Both the position numbers and the translations under genes were made by a program. Shown one piece after another: positions 5,049 through 52,847 of a stretch of 64,000 nucleotides of DNA (the first letter of the stretch is position 1; every line of letters starts with the position of its first letter). A model generated the notes under the pieces. It ran no database searches and was not told the DNA's origin. It was given only the letters and a program-made list of their open reading frames with translations. Source of the DNA: Daucus carota subsp. sativus (Eukaryota > Streptophyta > Magnoliopsida > Apiales > Apiaceae). Location of the stretch: contig NC_030387.2 of NCBI RefSeq assembly GCF_001625215.2, positions 25,184,517 through 25,248,516 of the forward strand, in the 5' to 3' direction.

Positions 5049-8000
5049 ATGTTTAAGGAGGCTTCAACTGTACTCAAAACTGAGGGCACTGATAGAGCAG
5101 ATGAGCTGAAGAAAGTGAGATTTTACGTCAAATTCTCATCCCCCCTTTTTACTGCTTTCGATGTTAATAGCTATACGGTGCAAGTTTTTTTTTCCCCTGG
5201 TTTTTGTTGGGAGTTGTGAGTTCTCATGGGTGTTTGTTTTAATTTTTAGGGTGTAGTTTATTCTCCATCAGCTTCAAGGCTGTGGAGACCAGCTGCTCAG
5301 AGAAATCTCAGAAACCAGTGGGCTAACTTGTCTTCTTATAAACACAAATGGGCCTCTCTTTCTTCTTCTGCTCGTTCACATGCCACTTCTTTTGTTAATT
5401 ATTCCCTTTCCTTAAGGTATTATTTTCAATCTTACTTTTATTTAATCAAACCCCAAATCATCTTTGTATTTTGTGTATGTATATCTGCTTGTTTTCTTCT
5501 TGTTTTCTAGGTATATGGATGCTAGGGATTTGGGCGTGTTGACTGATTTACCTGGTATAAAAAACAAAGCTTCTCTTAAATTGTTTAAGCAGCAGGTCAT
5601 TTCTTATTACTACTTTTTTTTTCTTTCTTTTTTTTCTCCTCATATTTAAGCTTTGAACTACATTGTATTTTTTTTTGATGTTTAGGAGCTTCATAGGAGT
5701 AAGCTTTTAGCTTCTTACAGGAATATGGTACTGGTTCTCTACTTGGATTTTTATTGATTATGTGAAAATTTCAGAGCTTTTGTTTATCTTATGATCGTGG
5801 AAAACATAAACAGTTATGCTTGCATTGTATGTAATTGTTATGCAACAACTACTGCATTTGCATATTGTATAGTTAGAGCTGCTTCTTCAATAAACAATAG
5901 GCTATAAATCATAATTTCAGTGCCACATTTTTCGATTGGCATGTTAGATTAAAGGGAACTTGCAACACGTGGATGTCTTGCTTCTGTTGCATCTTATCCT
6001 CTCTTATATTTGTATCATCATTTCTTAGTAAATTAGTAAAAACCAATACATGTATACTCATTTGTGTAAATATATACAGGTCACTATAGTGAATCAAATG
6101 GTGAATTCTGGTGCTTCGATGAGATGTTTCCTTAAAGGGGTTGACAATAGCTCAATTTTACAATATTCAAATTCTTCTTTGAACAGTACCGATGTTGGTG
6201 ATGGAGGGGGAATCCCGGCCTTTACATTTCGGTCAATTTCTTCTTTCGGCATGTTCTTTAACTTTAAGTATATTCGAGCTTTTGTTACTATTTTCCCATG
6301 TTACTATATTAGTTATTATACCAAAGACCTAATATACAAATTACTTACAGTTAAAGTCTCCTGGAAAAAAAATAGGCACAGATATATTTGCCATTATATT
6401 AGAAACACAATGTCCAACTTGTCTAAAATGGTGGTTTTAATATAATTCTAGCCAATACCTTTGTAATTAGCTCATTACTCTTAAAATTCCTTAAAAATTT
6501 CTTATCAATTTACCATTCTAAGAATACATAATTTTATTACAGAGGAATTAGCAGAGGAGCTTATACATATGTTTATTCTGGAACTCAATTTAAAGGTATA
6601 TTGCACCTTTCGCACGTCGCTGCAAGAATAAAATGTCTTATATATGAATTGGGCTGGTCAGTGTGGTCACTTATCCTTCTTTTTGTTAATGGTTGTTGTC
6701 GTTTGGGGTGTTTAATTGTTGCTATGGAACCGCAGCGGCTGCTAGTTATAGAGTTTATTTCCATCATTAATGAGGATGTCCAAAAAGATAATGAACTGTG
6801 CTGGCTGGACGAACTATATTCTGGCGAGTTTGATGACTTGAGTAAATGCAATTTGTACTCAACAGAAGCTTGTGCACCACTTCTTCCAAATATAAAGGGG
6901 AGAAAACCAGGTAAGCTAAAGCTGCAAGCAGAACACCAGCCAGATGAAGATGTTTTACAGGTAATGTCATCATTTCAATTTTTATATAAATTGTCTATCA
7001 TTTCCACAACAAGAGTTGCACTTCAGATATAATGTACTTGGTATGCACTTCAGATATAATGTACTTCAGATATAGTATATGACCAAGTACCAGCACCTGA
7101 GTAATTCGATTAGTTGCAATAATAGAGATAAGTTCAATAAACTTATTTGGAGTAAGACCCTACAAAGTAGTTATTTGTCAAAAAAAATTCCTATTATGCC
7201 TATGAAACAGAGATCCTTCTTAAGAAAGTAAGGATAGTATGTAACGATCTTTGGAAATCAACTAACTTCCAATTAGTTATCATTTGAAGTGCTCCACACA
7301 CAAGGAGCAGCCGCTGGGATCCAAAGGATTGCATGAATCAGATATTTGTTTCCCGCCATAAAACCTTAAAATTTAATTAACAAAAATTCAATTAATTAAA
7401 AAATAGGAAACTGGTCCACAGCCACGGGTGGATAGGGACCGGTTTCCAGCCATCAGATCACGTCCCTCCATTTTGTGATCCTACGGCTAAAAAAAAGGCT
7501 CCCCGCAATGAAACATTGTAACCCCGCAAAGAAACATTGCGAGTATGAAAGACCCCGCAATAAATCATTGCGGGTATACAAGTCCCCGCAATGTTTCATT
7601 GCAGGGAGTCTCTTTTTTTTTTCCCTGGACCCTTTTACCCCTCCCTGGACCCTTTTACCCCTCCCTTCACATATCATATGCCTTGTAGAGTTTATTATAT
7701 TAAATTGTTATCATTTAACATTTTTAAATTAAATTAAAATATTGTTAAGGTTAGAAATAGTGAGAAAATTTTGATTTTTCTTAGTACAATATATGAATAA
7801 TTTTTCTATCTAATTTCTATATATTTTTATCTTATTAACTATTTTATGTCTTTTTGTTATACTAATAATTTTACTTATTTGAATACTACTGCTTGTTTTT
7901 TAAATATATCGAACACATGTTTGAACTATGTAGTTCACATGCTCTTTTAAGGTTAATTAACTTTTTGTAGCTAAAGTTGAATTATTTTATTACGAATTAT

Positions 8001-27590: not shown

Positions 27591-27600
27591 GACAAACTCA

Positions 27601-27707
27601 GGCTCCGTTTCATTTTTAACCAATTTGTTCAATCACTTTTCAAAACTAACCAGTTTTTTTTTAGTTTTCAAAACTAACCAGTCTAATTCATTCGAAAAAT
27701 GGCGACC
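27601..27707 (+). repeat. Left terminal inverted repeat of the MULE
   Basis: Contains two copies of CAAAACTAACCAGT followed by AATTCATTCGAAAAATGG. Pairs with 34820-34927. Confidence 0.9.
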
Positions 27708-28062
27708 TGGACGAATTTTTTTTTACAATAAGGGGCGCCCTACGAAACGGCGACCCAAACATAAAAACTTCCCCGTAGGGGTCGCGTTTTTAAAGGGCGT
27801 CCCAAGGTTTATAAATGGTGTACCCTAGTCAGCCTCACGCATAAAACAGAGGCAGAAAAAACAAGTTCAGCCGAGTGAAGGAAGAGGCGGCTGGCCGAAA
27901 GAAAAAGAGAGCAGCTGGTTGGAACGGAAATTAGGGAGGAGAGGATCGTCAAGATCAGAAAAAGAAGGAGAGGGTCACCAGAAATCTGATTTCAAGCTTC
28001 AAAATCAACCCCGATTAGCACTAATTTGAAGGTATTAACCTAATCTTCTCTCAAAAATAGTG

Positions 28063-28122
<60 letters not shown>

Positions 28123-28256
28123 GCTTTCATTTTGATTAATTTTTTGTATGATATGGTAGATTTTGCATGATTGAGGCTTGAGATTTGATATGAGATGTGA
28201 TATGGATTTTTGAAATTTGAAATAGTTTAATAATTTTGAGATTTATGTTTGAAACT

Positions 28257-29329
28257 AAGGGTAATTTTTAGGAATTTTGAAATTAGATCTTTAGGCTAAT
28301 TTCATGATTTTAAGATTTTGTGGTTAGAAATTAATAAAATAATGTTGGAAAAAGTCAAAATAAGCATAATTTAAAATCTAAATTAAAAATTTTAACATAA
28401 TTCGAATTAATATATAGATATAATATTAAAAATTTTAACATAATTCGAATTAATAAAATAATGTTGGAAAAAAGTCAAAATAAGCATAATTTAATAATTT
28501 AGAGATTTATGTTTGGAATTAAGGGTACTTGTTAAGAATTTCTAAATTGGATCTTTAGTCTAAGTTCATGATTTTAGGATTTTAAGATTTTTAAATTCGA
28601 ATTAAAATATACGAATATAATATACAAATATAATATATTTGGAATAAATATATTAAATATAATAATCGAATTAAAATATATATAAATGTTAATATTCGAA
28701 TATAATATATTAAAATATTAACATATAATATAAACATGTAATATTCGAATATAATAAATTAAAATATGAATATAATATTCATAATAAAATATGAACATAT
28801 GATATAAACATGTAATATTCGAATATATATATATATATATAAATAAAATATTCGAATTAATATAAAACTATAAAATTGGAATTAATATATATATGGGATT
28901 TGATATGAAATTTAGGAATTTGAAATAGTTTAATAATTTAGAGATTTATGTTTGAAATTAAGGGTACTTGTTATGAATTTCTAAATTGGATCTTTAGGCT
29001 AAGTTCATGATTTTAGGATTTTAAGATTTTTTAAATTCGAATTAAAATAAAAATATTTTAAAAATTTATATGCTATAATATACGAATATAATATATTTGG
29101 AATAAAAATATTAAATATAATAATCAAATTAAAATATATATAAATGTTAATATTCGAATATAATATATTAAAATATTAACATATAATATAAACATGTCAT
29201 ATTCGAATATAATAAATTAAAATATGAATATGATATTCATAAAAAAATATGAACATATATAAATACATTATTTGAATTAAATTATCCAAAAATATAAATA
29301 TATCGAAAAAAATCACTTTTAACATATTC

Positions 29330-29368
<39 letters not shown>

Positions 29369-29540
29369 TCGAATTAATATAAAACTATAAAATTGGAATT
29401 AATATATATATGGGATTTGATATGAAATTTAGAAATTTGAAATAGTTTAATAATTTAGAGATTTATGTTTGAAATTAAGGGTACTTGTTAAGAATTTCTA
29501 AATTGGATCTTTAGGCTAAGTTCATGATTTTAGGGTTTTA
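28257..29540 (+). repeat. Long-period direct repeats with TA microsatellites
   Basis: The block containing AAGGGTACTTGTTAAGAATT starts near 28257 (diverged), 28521, 28960 and 29477, so spacing grows from 264 to 439 to 517 bp. TA runs lie at about 28067-28120, 28826-28842 and 29335-29362. The repeats form the upstream region of the plant mobile domain gene and may act as its promoter or as replication-slippage debris. Confidence 0.7.
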
Positions 29541-29587
29541 AGATTTTTTAAATTCGAATTAAAATTGAAATTTATTTGTTGGCGCAG

Positions 29588-31522
29588 ATGGATCCCGTAG
29601 TTTACCGTCCCGGCCCAGTCAATGGCAACTTGTTGACATTGCAGAAGGATCACAGGTCCGAGGCGGTGTGGAACAGGAGAGAGGTAATGACCTGACTTAT
29701 TGCTATTTATTAGAATAAAACGTCTGCTTTATGATAAACTACTGACACATTTTGCATTTTAATTGTGCCAGGCACCGGAGGATTTGAGAGTGAGGGGCAA
29801 CTTCGGTGAATATTGGAACACAGTTAAAAATAACCGGCCGCATGACTCGATAGTGACTACCATCACGGCCGCAGGTTTCGGATGGATTTTCAGGCTGGGG
29901 AAGGTCAGGCATGACAGGGGGGTGATCACAGCCTTCATTGAGAGGTGGCGTCCAGAGACGCACACTTTCCACTTATCATTTGGCGAAGCCACCATCACAC
30001 TGGAGGATGTTCATCACATTCTCGGCTTACGGACCACTGGCCGACCACTTATCCTGCACGGGTACACCTCCACTCCAGCTCAGATGGTGGCTTTGGTACG
30101 GGATTTACTTGGACTGGCTCCTGAGACCGATGATTTGAGGAAGGACAACTTGAAGATCCAGTGGTTGATTACACACTTTGGCAGATGTCACCAGTTGGAC
30201 GAGTCGGCTGAGGATTTTGGTGCGTAGTTTATCTTTCACATTAGGGCACACCTACTTTGTGTGATCGGATCGTTGTTTCCTAGTGGCAGCGGGAACTATG
30301 TGCAGCTAAGCCTTCTTCGGTTACTAGATGACCTGGAGAGCCTGGGTGGTTATAGTTGGGGTAGTGATGTTCTTTCCTACACATACAGGAAGATGTGTGA
30401 TGCGAGCAGAGGAGTCAAAATCGACTTCACTGGGTATGCCACATTACTTCAGGTACGCATGAAAGTACCCTCTTTAATCCCATTACTGTCATTTAGTTTT
30501 AACAAATTGTCTTCCCATACAACTTGATGTGCAAATTTATGTACTTAAATACCAGGTGTGGATATACGAGCGGTTCCCTACGATAGCTCCACAGCACAGG
30601 TCTCAACCCCAGTTCACTTACCCACTTGCGCTTAGGTATGTAATATGCTACTCTTCTCATAAACACATTCAATTATTGCACATGCACTACTTCTCGTCTT
30701 TAATCTAAACATTTTGTTGTAGGTGGGTGGCTTCAGTTACCCGTACTCAGGTGCCGCACATGGGTGTGGAACAGTTTTTGTGGTGGCCGTATGCAGCTTT
30801 AGATGATGAGTTTCAGTCCGATCAGACATTGTACTTGCGGTGGACAGCTCCCACGCCTTTGATGTACATGGCATATGTCGAGTGGTGTTATACTGACAGG
30901 GTGACGAGGCAGTTTGGGTTCGTTCAGGACATACCCACATCCTCCCCACGTAGGAATCATCAGGAGTTGCACGACGTCGTCAACGAGTCCATTGACTGGC
31001 AGGGCGCCAGGGAGACATACATTCATTTTTGGGATACGTCCCTTGACCGAGCTATGACATCTCCTCCATTCATTTTGGGCAATGGTTGCTCTCCCACATA
31101 CATGCCTTGGTACCTCCAGGTTACATGTAGATACATGGTTAACCCAATATTCTGGGGTAGAGCGGATGCTTTTCAGGGGACACAGGGCGCCACACAGTCA
31201 TTGGTAAACAACTTTCTTATTAAGTTTTTTTACTGTCTTCCACAATTACTTTTGTTCTACTGCATATGTTATGTCATTTAGAATGTATTCTCGGCCTGAC
31301 TTTTCTTTGCATGTTTATGTTTAGTAACAGGAGGAGTAGCTTCTAGAGGTGGACTCTGCCATTGACCCTGCTGCTCCCGATCTTAATCGGGCACAGAGTC
31401 TGCTACAGGGGGTGATTGCTCGTGTCAGGGGTCACCGAGGCCCTCCGACACGCAGAGGTCGGCGTCCTGTCACACCAGTTGAGCTGGAGCCTGGCACTTA
31501 CTACACTCATGTGGCCAGATAG
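29588..31522 (+). pseudogene. MAIN-like plant mobile domain gene with in-frame TAG
   Basis: Exons by frame and splice sites: 29588-29683, 29772-30452, 30556-30635, 30723-31203, then from 31331 (or 31340) to TAG at 31520. The protein (about 500 aa) starts MDPVVYRPGP and has the hallmark block FIERWRPETHTFHL followed by ITLEDVHHILGLRTTGRPL, plus WPYAALDDEF and YMPWYL further on. This matches the plant mobile domain of MAIN/MAIL1 proteins, also found in transposons. MAIN-type host proteins act in the nucleus in silencing and genome stability; the transposon versions have unknown roles. An in-frame TAG at 30225-30227 interrupts exon 2; a second TAG at 31337-31339 is avoidable with a nearby acceptor. 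A proline-rich tail seems to continue to about 31850 in other frames. Confidence 0.8.
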
Positions 31523-31789
31523 GGATGCACGGGGTCCTTCAGGGGCGGGGGAATGGCCCCGTTGGCCCGAGGTGGCAACTGAGACTGCAGGGGATGACTA
31601 CGTAGGTGGTGAAAGTGGTTTTGCGGTGAATTTAGAGGATGACGAGGACACCTCTCCTACTGGTGGGCACACACAACTCCTCCACTTCAGGAGTCATACC
31701 ACCAGTTTGCTGATCGAGATGTTTATCGTCCTGACATGTCATTCCTGGCCGATCAGTACACCACACCTCCGCTACAGGCCCCGGTCCCG

Positions 31790-32071
31790 TCATTTGGTAG
31801 CCCATCCTACTCTTTCAGCATGCTTCGTCTCCATTTCTGCAATTTCCACTGCCTGCGACCATTTGAGGTCACTTATTTTCTCAGAAAGTTTGTTGATGAC
31901 CACAGTTGACCGGGTGTCTAGCCGCTCATCTAGCCATACTAAGTAACCACAACCACTAGCGCCGTTAGGACATTGCAACATCCGTCTACCAACGTCGGGA
32001 CTGTTGTCATGACAAACTCTCTTAACAAGGACTTTGTCACAGTAGCACTTATCGACAGCAACGGAATCCAT
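31790..32071 (-). CDS. GRF-type zinc-finger small protein (93 aa)
   Basis: Starts at a real ATG (32071). The pattern CYC near residues 9-11, GRRMLQC near 28-34 and GCGYLVWLDE near 39-48 fits the GRF zinc finger (CxC, GR, C, CGY/F-x-W-x-D). After it comes a predicted helical segment (KLSEKISDLKWSQAVEIAEM). GRF fingers are nucleic-acid binding modules in topoisomerase 3, APE2 and TTF2-type proteins. Convergent with, and possibly overlapping, the C-terminal tail of the plant mobile domain gene. A second copy lies upstream on the same strand. Whether it is expressed is unknown. Confidence 0.7.
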   Translation of the reverse strand: MDSVAVDKCYCDKVLVKRVCHDNSPDVGRRMLQCPNGASGCGYLVWLDERLDTRSTVVINKLSEKISDLKWSQAVEIAEMETKHAERVGWATK

Positions 32072-32289
32072 AAATGTTATAATGTGTTTGAGATAGTGAT
32101 GAAGGTGAGATGATGAGGGAGGGACTTATTTATAGGTGAAAATGATAAGTCCATCAGTTTAAAATATTAAAAAATAAACAACTTAATACATAAGACTGGG
32201 TTCGTAAAGTGGGGAAGGACAATGTATTATTGTACGTACATAATAAGAAACACAACAACACATGCATGTTACTAGGACATGAACTTAAA

Positions 32290-32625
32290 TCAACGTTCGT
32301 TTTTATTTTTTGAACAACCCTCCCCTTTCTTTTTTCCCTTCACAGATTTAAGGTCTTCATCATGCCTCTCCCTAATCCTCTCCTTTGCAAAGTGATGATC
32401 CCATATGAGGTCGCTCATCTCCTTAGCCATCTCAGTAAGCACTGCAGTAGCACGCGCCTCAAGTGGGTCATCGATCCAAAACATGTATCCGCACCCCTCT
32501 AGCCATAGTGAACACCGGGACATCATTCTTCCAGCATTAGGCCCAGTCCCTCGATAAGTACTATGAATGGCAAGCCTTTCACAGTAGCACGTATCCCCTT
32601 GAACAACCTCACCTATTGGATCCAT
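32290..32625 (-). CDS. Second GRF-type zinc-finger small protein (111 aa)
   Basis: Starts at ATG 32625 (MDPIGEVVQGD). Zinc-finger pattern CYC at about 13-15, GRMMSRC about 32-38, GCGYMFWIDD about 44-53, then a helix with RATAVLTEMAKEMSDLIW matching the corresponding part of the 93-aa neighbour, and a strongly basic tail (KGKKKGEGCSKNKNER). The two GRF ORFs are tandem paralogues in the same transposon, 218 bp apart, antisense to the mobile domain gene. The basic tail suggests nucleic-acid or nuclear targeting; that is inference. Confidence 0.72.
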   Translation of the reverse strand: MDPIGEVVQGDTCYCERLAIHSTYRGTGPNAGRMMSRCSLWLEGCGYMFWIDDPLEARATAVLTEMAKEMSDLIWDHHFAKERIRERHDEDLKSVKGKKKGEGCSKNKNER

Positions 32626-32759
32626 GTAATTAAGATTTGTTTAAAAAGTGTGAACAAGTTTTCCACTATTTATAAGCCCAATTTCCCAAGTAGGCTCCCT
32701 TCATACAATTGTTTACTCACCAGATTACCATTATTGCGGAAGAAAATAATGGAATCTCT

Positions 32760-33130
32760 GTCATGGGTGCATTATAGGCTTCACATGGCTACAGTCTTGT
32801 AATCTAACCCCGAAGGAATCTATGCAGTTTCACATGGGTGCATTATAGGGTTCACATGGGTACACTTTCACATGGCTACAGTCTCCGAATTTCTGCAAAA
32901 AATAATTCACATAGGTGCATTATAGAATTCACATGAGTACAGTCTCCGAATCTCTGCCAGAAAGACCATGTCATTTACTTTTATCATGGTTATAGTAAAG
33001 GAATCTATGCAGTTTCACATGGACCGATTCAGACACCTTCACCACTATACTCAAGTAGCTTCACATGGCTACACTCCATGAAAGCTGTGCAACCCTAGCC
33101 TTCCAACTCAACTACTTCACATGCCTACAG
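32760..33130. repeat. Diverged short repeats of TTCACATGGGTGCATTATAG
   Basis: TTCACATGG followed by GTGCATTATAG or CTACAGTC recurs about nine times with variation, often with CTCCGAATCTCTGC or GGAATCTATGCAG nearby. It lies directly upstream of the acidic-tailed ORF and may be its 5' region. Confidence 0.65.
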
Positions 33131-33247
33131 TGGATTATTAGTCTATATGTACTCATGTTTATTGAAGGTGTCTACACTTACAACTTCAAACTTAAATCTT
33201 CTCATCACGAAATGTTCTCATCCTCTAGAATTTGGTTGCTACGACAA

Positions 33248-33670
33248 ATGGATGACGACTACTATAGTTTGAGATACACCGATCCCAAAGAGTATTTCGC
33301 TGGAGTGCGGCGCGAGTGGGCATTCCGTCTTGAAGAATCGAATCAGTTGCGAAATGATCTGATTGGTCTTGGTGCAAAGCTCCCCGTCCGCGATTCTTTA
33401 GGCGTGTATCCGGCTCGTAACTTCAACGGTAGTTGGGGTGATTATCGCCGTTTGGTCATTGAAGCTGTGGGACTAATAAGGGAAGAGAACAACAGAATGT
33501 TGTTGCGTCGTTGTCGTTTCTACATGCTTAAGTTGGTAAAGGATTCGGCAGCTGCTAGCGGTAGAGAAATGACTTTTGAAGAAGAATGTCAACTTCTTCA
33601 AAATCCAAATTACTTGTCCGATGAGCCGATGTCCGATGAAGAGGCAACTGATGATGATGATTCCGAATAA
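33248..33670 (+). CDS. Unrecognised MULE-borne ORF with acidic tail (about 140 aa)
   Basis: Starts at MDDDYYSLRYTDPKEYF (ATG 33248); ATG 33212 in frame would add 12 residues. The body is charged and helical (EEWAF-like, RREWAFRLEESNQLRNDL; LIREENNRMLLRRCRFYML) with a conserved-looking centre VYPARNFNGSWGDYRRL, and it ends in EEATDDDDSE. No known domain is recognised. Its composition is more GC-balanced than the AT-rich surroundings, which supports real coding. Role within the element unknown; acidic tails of this kind occur in chromatin or activator proteins, but that is only an analogy. Confidence 0.55.
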   Translation: MDDDYYSLRYTDPKEYFAGVRREWAFRLEESNQLRNDLIGLGAKLPVRDSLGVYPARNFNGSWGDYRRLVIEAVGLIREENNRMLLRRCRFYMLKLVKDSAAASGREMTFEEECQLLQNPNYLSDEPMSDEEATDDDDSE

Positions 33671-33787
33671 TATATTTTGTTCTTGCTTTTATTTCGATAA
33701 ATCTAGTTGTTTGTACTTGCATTATATTTATTTCAATGAAATTGCACTTAGTAAGAGCATAAACACAACATTACAACATTATATTCA

Positions 33788-34183
33788 TCACGGATGCTTT
33801 GCATACTCGTCAAAATTCGATTTCACAATATCTATCACTTTTGCATCGTATTCTGCCCAGCTCTCTTCCAACAATGCTACCATTTGCTCCTCCGTGATCT
33901 GTCCTCTCAAGAAAGAAGTATTTGTATCTCTATCTTTTTTGAAGTGATATTCTCGCAACGCCCTGCCTACTCCATACATAACCTCAGTGTCGGTCTCATC
34001 CTTGGTCGGCACCCAATGTCTGCCCTTTCTTTCTTCTCGATACTGCAACAACCGCATCTCCGCAACAAACTTCATCTTCATCGATGCCCTTTCCGCAGCA
34101 ATTGAAAGCTCGCCTTTCGTTTGTTAATAAGCCCATTCTTCCATCCCCTCGTCTTCCTTTCTCGATCTTTTATGGTTCTCCAT
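33788..34183 (-). pseudogene. Unrecognised MULE-borne ORF with early stop (about 131 aa)
   Basis: An ORF of 97 codons begins at ATG 34081, but the same frame extends upstream to a better ATG at 34183 (MENHKRSRKEDEG), interrupted by one TAA (34124-34126). The upstream start is basic and NLS-like (HKRSRK). The body is charged and helical, with HWVPTKDETDTEVMYGVGRAL and EEQMVALLEESWAEYD. No domain recognised. The 3' ends of this and the acidic-tailed ORF converge 118 bp apart. Confidence 0.5.
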
Positions 34184-34349
34184 TCAGAGCTTCGTTTGTA
34201 CGAGTCGATCTAGAATATGTGTGTATGTGTGAGAATGGCTAAAAACCTAATGGTATTTTATAGAAGCATATAGGTTACAAAAATTCACAATTTTATTACT
34301 AGTTATGTAATTACAACATTATTAATTAGATACTTACTAAAACTTGAAT

Positions 34350-34350
<1 letters not shown>

Positions 34351-34416
<66 letters not shown>
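34351..34416. repeat. TA microsatellite
   Basis: An almost perfect (TA)n run of about 66 bp inside the right part of the MULE, followed by AT-rich DNA with repeated ATATCACAAATAATGTATAA. Confidence 0.85.
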
Positions 34417-34420
<4 letters not shown>

Positions 34421-34819
34421 TTATAATTAATTACCTTTTAAATTATAATTCAATATGAGCTTAAATATTTAAATATTACAATCTATAATATTATATTATA
34501 TCATTACATAATATAATAATATAAAATATAATATCACAAATAATGTATAAGAATTATCCGATTAATGATTTTTTTTAAAAAAAAATATATCACAAATAAT
34601 GTATAAGAATTATATGATTTTTTTATATTATATCATTATATAATATAATATTATAAAAATATAATAATATAAATAATATATAAGAATTTTCCGATTTTTG
34701 ATTTTTTTTTTTAAAATAAGCCAGGGTCGCCCGTGTATAGGGCGACCCATATGGCAATAAAATGAAAAAGGGGTCGCCCTTCCAAAGGGCGTCCCGTGCT
34801 GTGGAAATGAAATGGTTTG

Positions 34820-34927
34820 GGTCACCATTTTTCGAATGAATTAGATTGGTTAGTTTTGAAAGCTCGAAAAAAAACTGGTTAGTTTTGAAAAGTGGTTGAA
34901 CAAATTGGTTAGAAATGAAACGGAACC
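34820..34927 (-). repeat. Right terminal inverted repeat of the MULE
   Basis: Reverse complement of the left terminus; ends GAAATGAAACGGAACC. The 10-bp flank GAAAAACTCA follows directly. Confidence 0.9.
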
Positions 34928-34937
34928 GAAAAACTCA

Positions 34938-51410: not shown

Positions 51411-52847
51411 TCACTTAATGGATTCCTCCATTGCAGCAACAAAACCAGCAGTTCCAAAGCTTAAATGCACAAAGTCATCAGGTCCTTGACCCCCAATACC
51501 AACACCAACAGGTTCAATAGCATGAAACATATCCACATCCCTAATCATATTACCACTCATTTGAACTTGATACAGATTACCTATATCAATATCCATTTGC
51601 CTATTTCCATTTAAAGAAGCAGCAGCTATCCCCTCTAGGTAAGTCACCCTATTTATAATGTTCACATTTTCTTCCTTAAGTCTTTTCATCTCAATTTTCT
51701 GTTCTTCTATCACCTTAAGCACAGAGTTCTTATCAGCTAGGAACACATCTTCCTCATCTAAGTAGGATGGCATATTAAAGGCAACAGATTTCTCAGGTTC
51801 ACATTTATCTAAAGCAACTTGAGCCCTAACATGAGTAACATCAATGTAGGCAGTAGTCTTAGTTTCTAAGGCAGTAGGCAAGGGAATGTGAAACAGACTA
51901 AACACAGCAGTCAAGACATGAGCATAAGGCATGTAATCAGTCAAATGAGCATTGATCATGTTCAAGAGAATAACATAAGATATGCTGAACTCTATCCTAT
52001 TAATAACAAACAGGAACATCAGCTTCATATCATAGAAATCAAAGTGTTTATCTTGGTTAGACTTAGGGAGCACATTGGACCTTATAATCAAAGCAACCAA
52101 CTGATACACAGGAGTAAAATGCTTATAGTGTATACCACAGTTAGAATCACACAGACCAAATGGCACATCAGAATCAGTGAAGAAACCCACATAAAGTTGA
52201 AACTCTTCTTGACAGAACACAAAGTGAGAGTAGATGTCAAAACATGGCATTCCAGATAGTCTTTGAGGTAATTTTAAAGCTTTGTTTAAGATTTTCTGGT
52301 CAACTAGTATAGGTTTCCCTCCTACAATTGTAGTTAAGTGCATTATCCCATCCAATCCCCTTATAGGCTTCATGTTACAGTAAAACTCACCAATTAAGTG
52401 CAAGAAATACCTATGATCTAGGTCATAAATCAAGCTTTTTCACTCAGCAGCAAGCACTAGTTTCTCAATCTCTCCCTTGGCTTCCACAATGGTTCCAGGT
52501 TGAACATTTTGGTTCATAAGGAGAAGCTTTTTGGAATGTGACAGATTGGCTAGTCTTGGTGGAGGGGGTCTGATTTTTATGAGATCAGGGTAGTTTTGAT
52601 AGTTTGAGGCTCTTTTGAGAGGTCTGATAGGCTTTTTGAAGATAGGGCTTTGGTAGAAAGGAATGGCATTAGTGGAGGTAGTGTATTTAGGCCTTCTGTG
52701 ATAGGTTCTTATAGGTTTAGGTTTAGTGTATTGATGGAGTTTTGAAGTGGTGGATTGTTTAAACTGAGTGGATTCCATGGCTTCAAGAAGGTAAGGATGA
52801 TCAAAGGTGTTTCTTTGGTAATTGGCAGGGAGGGGAGTGAAATCCAT
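51411..52847 (-). pseudogene. Envelope-like ORF of the Sirevirus, one in-frame TGA
   Basis: Two ORFs (52847-52440 and about 52439-51411) are in the same frame, separated only by TGA at 52440-52442, giving one reading of about 478 codons. The N-terminal part is Pro/Lys/Arg-rich (PIRTYHRRPKYTT). The middle resembles the putative plant transposon protein domain found with envelope-like genes (VALIIRSNVLPKS). The C-terminal part has a probable coiled coil (VIEEQKIEMKRLKEENVNII). No gag or pol motif is present. In Sireviruses this gene sits between pol and the 3' LTR, which fits its position here. Function in the retrotransposon is not established. Confidence 0.6.

Follow-up and report, generated by a model that had tools for sequence, protein, structure and literature searches.

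A transposase-less Mutator-like element of carrot carries a conserved five-gene set whose plant mobile domain protein is predicted to adopt the VANC21 fold

The window analysed here is a 64,000-bp stretch of the genome of carrot, Daucus carota subsp. sativus (contig NC_030387.2, positions 25,184,517 to 25,248,516), and our subject is the Mutator-like element (MULE) that occupies its positions 27601-34927. The element is bounded by long terminal inverted repeats, the left one (27601-27756, forward strand) aligning to the complement of 34771-34927 with a score of 187, whereas none of 300 dinucleotide-block shuffles scored above 32. On either side lies a copy of a 10-bp duplication (27591-27600 and 34928-34937), the two being identical at nine of ten positions. 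The original prediction, made from the sequence alone, had described inverted termini of about 107 bp, a 10-bp flanking duplication with one mismatch, and a MULE; all three descriptions stand, since long terminal inverted repeats and a target duplication within the 8-11 bp range are both present. A chance or unrelated inverted duplication is rejected as the source of the termini by the alignment score and by the target duplications found in sister copies. The prediction of five open reading frames (ORFs), none of them a transposase, likewise holds: a Pfam scan found no transposase match among the five, and MURA, the transposase of the sister elements described below, has no match anywhere in 27601-34927. 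The element lacks a MULE transposase and is therefore filed as non-autonomous.

The first of the five genes encodes a plant mobile domain (PMD) protein and extends over 29588-31522 on the forward strand in five exons (29588-29683, 29772-30452, 30556-30635, 30723-31203 and 31331-31522). A MAIN-like mobile domain gene had been proposed here, and the domain itself is confirmed, the frame 30760-31281 alone matching PF10536 at 52.6 bits (cut-off 34.9) and the carrot PMD protein P0021 (others from carrot being P0023, P0024 and P0025) reaching 225 bits. The window copy is broken, however: two in-frame stops lie within 29588-31522, stops fall at four of 621 codons aligned to P0021, and the tail is out of frame, leaving a remnant to about 31946 to which the ORF at 31509-31946 belongs. 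In a tree of 37 rows chosen by hand from listed relatives, few of them bearing MAIN-like names and those names unverified, the carrot, celery and Heracleum proteins form a clade with two unnamed rows (support 100/100). On this tree recent capture of PMD from a host gene appears unlikely, the clade lying deep within the Apiaceae.

Structure prediction followed by a clear fold match indicates that the PMD protein would adopt the fold of VANC21, the DNA-bound, sequence-specific anti-silencing protein of the Arabidopsis MULE VANDAL21, with PDB entry 9lnj as the solved reference. Earlier papers call the function of PMD unknown, and a role against silencing has been the subject of speculation for the PMDs of transposons (PMC5418596, PMC8616336); the PMDs of eudicots are described as mainly genic PMD-C (PMC7156037). 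In the portions of the literature that our search returned, we found neither a statement of a link between PMD and the VANC fold nor a pairing of DUF1985 with PMD.

Two GRF zinc finger proteins are encoded on the reverse strand, GRF1 (31790-32071, 93 amino acids) and GRF2 (32290-32625, 111 amino acids), and the two predicted GRF fingers are confirmed by matches to PF06839 of 28.3 bits each (cut-off 25.9). Such fingers suit nucleic-acid binding. ORF4 (33248-33670, forward strand) encodes 140 amino acids with predicted long helices, and ORF5 reads from 34183 to 33788 on the reverse strand, 131 codons with one in-frame stop; GRF1, GRF2 and ORF4 are open in this copy, and PMD and ORF5 carry stops. 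Neither ORF4 nor ORF5 matches a Pfam family above its cut-off, in keeping with their earlier description as unknown ORFs, and a fold search with the ORF4 model gave 14 matches with E-values up to 10, none below 0.001. The ORF4 family comprises 20 proteins, the named ones from carrot, celery and Rhododendron, and the ORF5 family seven, of which the three named are all from carrot. In other species, the locus tags seen for relatives of PMD, ORF4 and ORF5 did not belong to genes next to one another. A literature search found no paper pairing a GRF zinc finger with PMD in transposition or with a plant Mutator transposase. A second family of single-GRF frames, with about 38-43% identity to GRF2 over residues 9-88, occurs at about 35 places on many contigs.

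When the carrot genome (441 Mb, 11 contigs) was searched with the left 201 bp of the window element, 263 candidate places were found, of which 40 were scored and 20 loci fetched; four of these (L032, L033, L035 and L039) were not delimited at both ends. Two complete copies, L023 (8,635 bp) and L034 (9,362 bp), lack MURA and keep all five genes, ordered and oriented as in the window element. This arrangement, the constancy of which the original prediction had asked about, recurs in a diverged subfamily. L035 has four of the five genes within the fetched stretch, in L039 ORF4 and ORF5 lie beyond PMD and the two GRF genes, and L021 is a 3.3-kb derivative that keeps ORF4 and ORF5. L032 and L033 (C7:30381650-30418130) present matching termini about 36 kb apart with identical flanking bases; copia-type retrotransposon frames lie between them, L032 contains a PMD fragment, and together they are apparently one old copy with large insertions.

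For ORF4, ORF5 and the GRF genes the association extends genome-wide. Among 57 ORF4 loci (merged from 60 rows), a convergent ORF5 lies within 700 bp at 54, an upstream GRF2 on the opposite strand is found at 45, and both GRF genes are present at 41; the GRF count draws on 150 rows, 50 classed as GRF2 and 49 as GRF1 by identity and place, and leaves out the remaining 51 (another GRF family, fragments and weak rows). The proposal of a coherent gene module is upheld by this shared order and orientation, and a random cargo is rejected by the conserved gene order together with the genome-wide co-occurrence.

The same termini also enclose a quite different content. Nine of the 20 fetched loci (L022, L025-L030, L036 and L037) encode MURA, which in L026 has DBD_Tnp_Mut, MULE, SWIM and zinc knuckle domains, and have no match to PMD, GRF, ORF4 or ORF5 at an E-value of 1e-4; MURA has no match in the remaining loci of this set. 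Five-gene and MURA-element termini are on average about 78% alike, as are five-gene termini among themselves, and the two kinds intermingle in a quick tree printed without support values. The right end common to the MURA-bearing elements corresponds to window positions 34396-34927, which include the right inverted repeat, and it aligns with L022 at 89% over 536 columns and with L030 at 86% over 521, the similarity to L026 being mainly in the terminal 200 bp. Because the MURA proteins of L025, L026 and L028 are identical and their target duplications perfect, the MURA-only family must have moved recently; among 17 delimited elements the duplication is perfect in 14 (9-10 bp), matches at nine of ten positions in two and is absent from one. 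Related copies without the ORFs, which the original prediction had named as evidence against itself, therefore exist at these nine loci, but they constitute a sister family and not a random cargo.

The MURA elements encode a second protein in two related versions, of 271 and about 185 amino acids, in opposite orientation (L022, L030 and the composites described next), and L031 retains only the shorter. ORF5 is probably a relative of this protein, with a profile score of 34.5 that 300 column shuffles did not approach beyond 23.7, over only about 20 columns; the corresponding score for ORF4 is just 13.0.

A third arrangement combines the two gene sets. The view that no copy unites the five genes with MURA was overturned when MURA was found among L041 and L043-L048, in three copies of the diverged subfamily on C3, C4 and C6; the lack of a transposase is therefore the state of the window's branch and not of the module. 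L041 (C6:6887500-6897499), from a subfamily of many near-identical ORF4/ORF5 copies, has all five genes in order, PMD aligning at 57-58% in its two longest core segments, of 240 and 174 columns, and at 40% in the tail. The C6 copy reads contiguously from the left end through PMD, GRF1, GRF2, ORF4 and ORF5 to a MURA on the opposite strand (compared with that of L026, 77% over the C-terminal half and 55% over the N-terminal one), and on to two proteins related to the second protein of the MURA elements. The right halves of the C3 and C4 copies are the same as that of the C6 copy. The C4 composite (C4:17670968-17688399, 17,432 bp) has inverted ends and a 9/9 duplication, and GRF1, GRF2, ORF4, ORF5 and MURA were identified in the parts of it that were fetched. 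The left end of L041 faces a second inverted terminus head to head, and a fragment resembling a terminus is located between PMD and the GRF genes (5308-5367 of the reversed stretch). Multiple terminal repeats have been described in MULEs (PMC3310237).

Both features would suit a composite that is a nest, a MURA-bearing MULE inside or beside a five-gene MULE, and not one gene set. We consider this improbable, because copies on three contigs (C3, C4 and C6) share one layout and a single outer pair of ends with its duplication encloses both parts in C4. The composite may be either ancestral or formed by joining. Since an element with both gene sets exists, the window type is its transposase-less counterpart; and with three architectures in the carrot genome (the five genes alone, MURA alone between the same termini, and both together in 17.4 kb) it is the accessory half of a split MULE.

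We lean, by a modest measure, toward the interpretation that the window element belongs to a transposase-less branch of a MULE lineage with PMD-based anti-silencing at its own repeats, served by MURA in trans. The full form would comprise MURA together with PMD (+), GRF1 (-), GRF2 (-), ORF4 (+) and ORF5 (-). MURA from sister elements would move the window type through the common termini. The PMD protein would bind short words that recur through the noncoding tandem repeats 5' in its own element and would remove silencing marks there, as VANC21 does at VANDAL21, and the GRF proteins, probably nucleic-acid binding, might assist it along with ORF4 and ORF5. Sequence-specific binding of this kind would direct the benefit back to site-bearing copies. 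The earlier suggestion that the module counters silencing gains support from the predicted fold match, the activity itself being a prediction; the companion suggestion, a part in guiding integration, drew evidence neither in favour nor against.

A candidate target lies at 28400-29570, where the tandem arrays are evident in the DNA and the reiterated word TTCGAA is a candidate for the bound motif. It occurs 13 times in the 1787 bp 5' of the window PMD (500 shuffles: mean 0.76, maximum 4). The corresponding regions of L023, L034, L039 and L041 contain 13, 17, 25 and 6 occurrences, each of the nine MURA loci 0-2, and 56.5 kb of window flank 16. VANC21 is reported to bind a nine-base motif arrayed in fast-changing noncoding tandem repeats (PMC5735166, PMC10398659).

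Purifying selection on the ORFs, another question raised with the original prediction, was estimated as the ratio of nonsynonymous to synonymous substitution rates (dN/dS) by simple counting without error bars, skipping stop codons and excluding GRF matches below 60% identity as paralogues. Between L041 and copies of the other branch the ratio is 0.30-0.34 for PMD (four copies; dS 1.13-1.22), 0.23-0.27 for ORF4 (five copies) and 0.40-0.53 for ORF5 (six copies). Selection is clear for the lineage overall, across the deep split; for the transposase-less copies taken by themselves it is weak or unproven. The GRF genes have a separate history. Across the same split GRF1 and GRF2 have a dS of only 0.11-0.15, and a block of about 1.15 kb around them (window positions about 31800-32950; L034, L039 and L041) retains 87-88% identity, noncoding DNA included, compared with about 66% for PMD and 74-76% for ORF4 and ORF5; the block is so much more alike that it must have passed between MULE subfamilies.

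Several observations weigh against the anti-silencing interpretation. The resemblance of PMD to VANC21 is one of fold only, at 11% identity; a sequence-profile search of PDB gave eight weak rows, none of them VANC; and P0021 has no DUF1985 match in Pfam, with its relatives P0121 and P0129 below the Pfam cut-off, so that PMD is not filed as VANC. The host PMD proteins MAIN and MAIL1 promote silencing, as two papers state (PMC5418596, PMC8616336). TTCGAA was picked post hoc, and other words outrank it when an order-2 null is applied, its rank in the five copies being 13, 36, 4, 15 and 5. Among close transposase-less copies the dN/dS of PMD is near neutral (0.69-0.93) and that of ORF4 ranges from 0.04 to 1.18 on few changes; as the deep comparisons set a composite against transposase-less copies, it may be mainly in composites that selection took place. 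The window element, L023 and L034 have broken PMD genes; that of L039 is stop-free.

These last points, three broken PMD genes among the four transposase-less copies examined for PMD and near-neutral change, suit an account in which the window type arose passively by deletion from a composite and its five genes are unused passengers, as do the existence of composites with MURA and the further internal loss in L021. We judge this account unlikely. Against it, GRF2 is stop-free in six of six copies, GRF1 in five of six and ORF4 in six of six, 41 of the 50 ORF4 loci genome-wide with at least 130 codons aligned have no stop, and ORF4 dN/dS between the window and L021, L023, L034 and L035 is 0.04-0.25, on few changes.

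It is also conceivable, though we find it doubtful, that the five genes are accessory transposition factors acting in target choice, integration or transposase assembly, as suggested for maize mudrB; the equally doubtful counterpart for PMD is that its DNA-binding fold marks ends or targets and has no anti-silencing role. GRF and VANC-type folds both fit nucleic-acid binding, and ORF5 and the second protein of the MURA elements probably have a stretch in common. Integration reportedly appears to depend on mudrB (PMC6446971). The only clear fold match, on the other hand, is to an anti-silencing protein, and MURA-only elements with the same termini (the identical MURA proteins of L025, L026 and L028) multiplied recently without PMD, GRF or ORF4.

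Read as an anti-silencing system, the lineage resembles VANDAL and would be its counterpart in the Apiaceae. Like VANDAL21, the composite type places a MULE transposase next to a protein of predicted VANC21 fold, and fast-changing tandem repeats occupy noncoding DNA, as reported for VANDAL (PMC5735166). The lineage differs in its long terminal inverted repeats, in matching PMD and not DUF1985 in Pfam, in the additional genes GRF1, GRF2, ORF4 and ORF5, and in having a branch without MURA. MULEs of grasses and Amborella also carry PMDs, reported as fusions with the transposase (PMC5418596), whereas the carrot PMD is a separate gene in a eudicot, accompanied by GRF1, GRF2, ORF4 and ORF5 with or without MURA. 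MAIN and MAIL1 share the plant mobile domain but are host genes promoting silencing, and the carrot element PMD belongs to its own Apiaceae clade. Pack-MULEs similarly enclose non-transposase genes between MULE ends; their cargo consists of varied, recent gene fragments, unlike the old, order-conserved set that the carrot elements have in common with the composites. MuDR, with mudrA and mudrB, is alike in uniting a transposase with an accessory gene in one MULE, ORF5 being probably related to the second protein of the MURA elements.

More tentatively, and with somewhat less than an even chance in our estimation, PMD may be a branch of the VANC fold, such that VANC, MULE PMDs and MAIN/MAIL1 would form one DNA-binding superfamily; a VANDAL-like MULE of the Apiaceae would have evolved a five-gene anti-silencing kit around PMD and split into complementary transposase and anti-silencing branches sharing their ends, with fast-changing repeats as private targets. 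The fold match offers a testable hypothesis for the whole plant mobile domain and for the action of MAIN and MAIL1 as part of it, and it hints that a host silencer and a transposon anti-silencer could have one common ancestor. Composite, transposase-only and accessory-only forms in one genome would be a natural case of gene splitting between cooperating elements.

Elsewhere in the window, a reverse-strand frame at 51414-52439 has a match to Transposase_32 (putative plant transposon protein) at 33.6 bits, below the cut-off of 45. Judged by their domains, the genes around the element are a cluster of S-locus-type lectin genes into which it is inserted: all three neighbouring frames scanned (13625-41640) contain B_lectin, S_locus_glycop and PAN_2, and parts of these frames we take to encode kinases.

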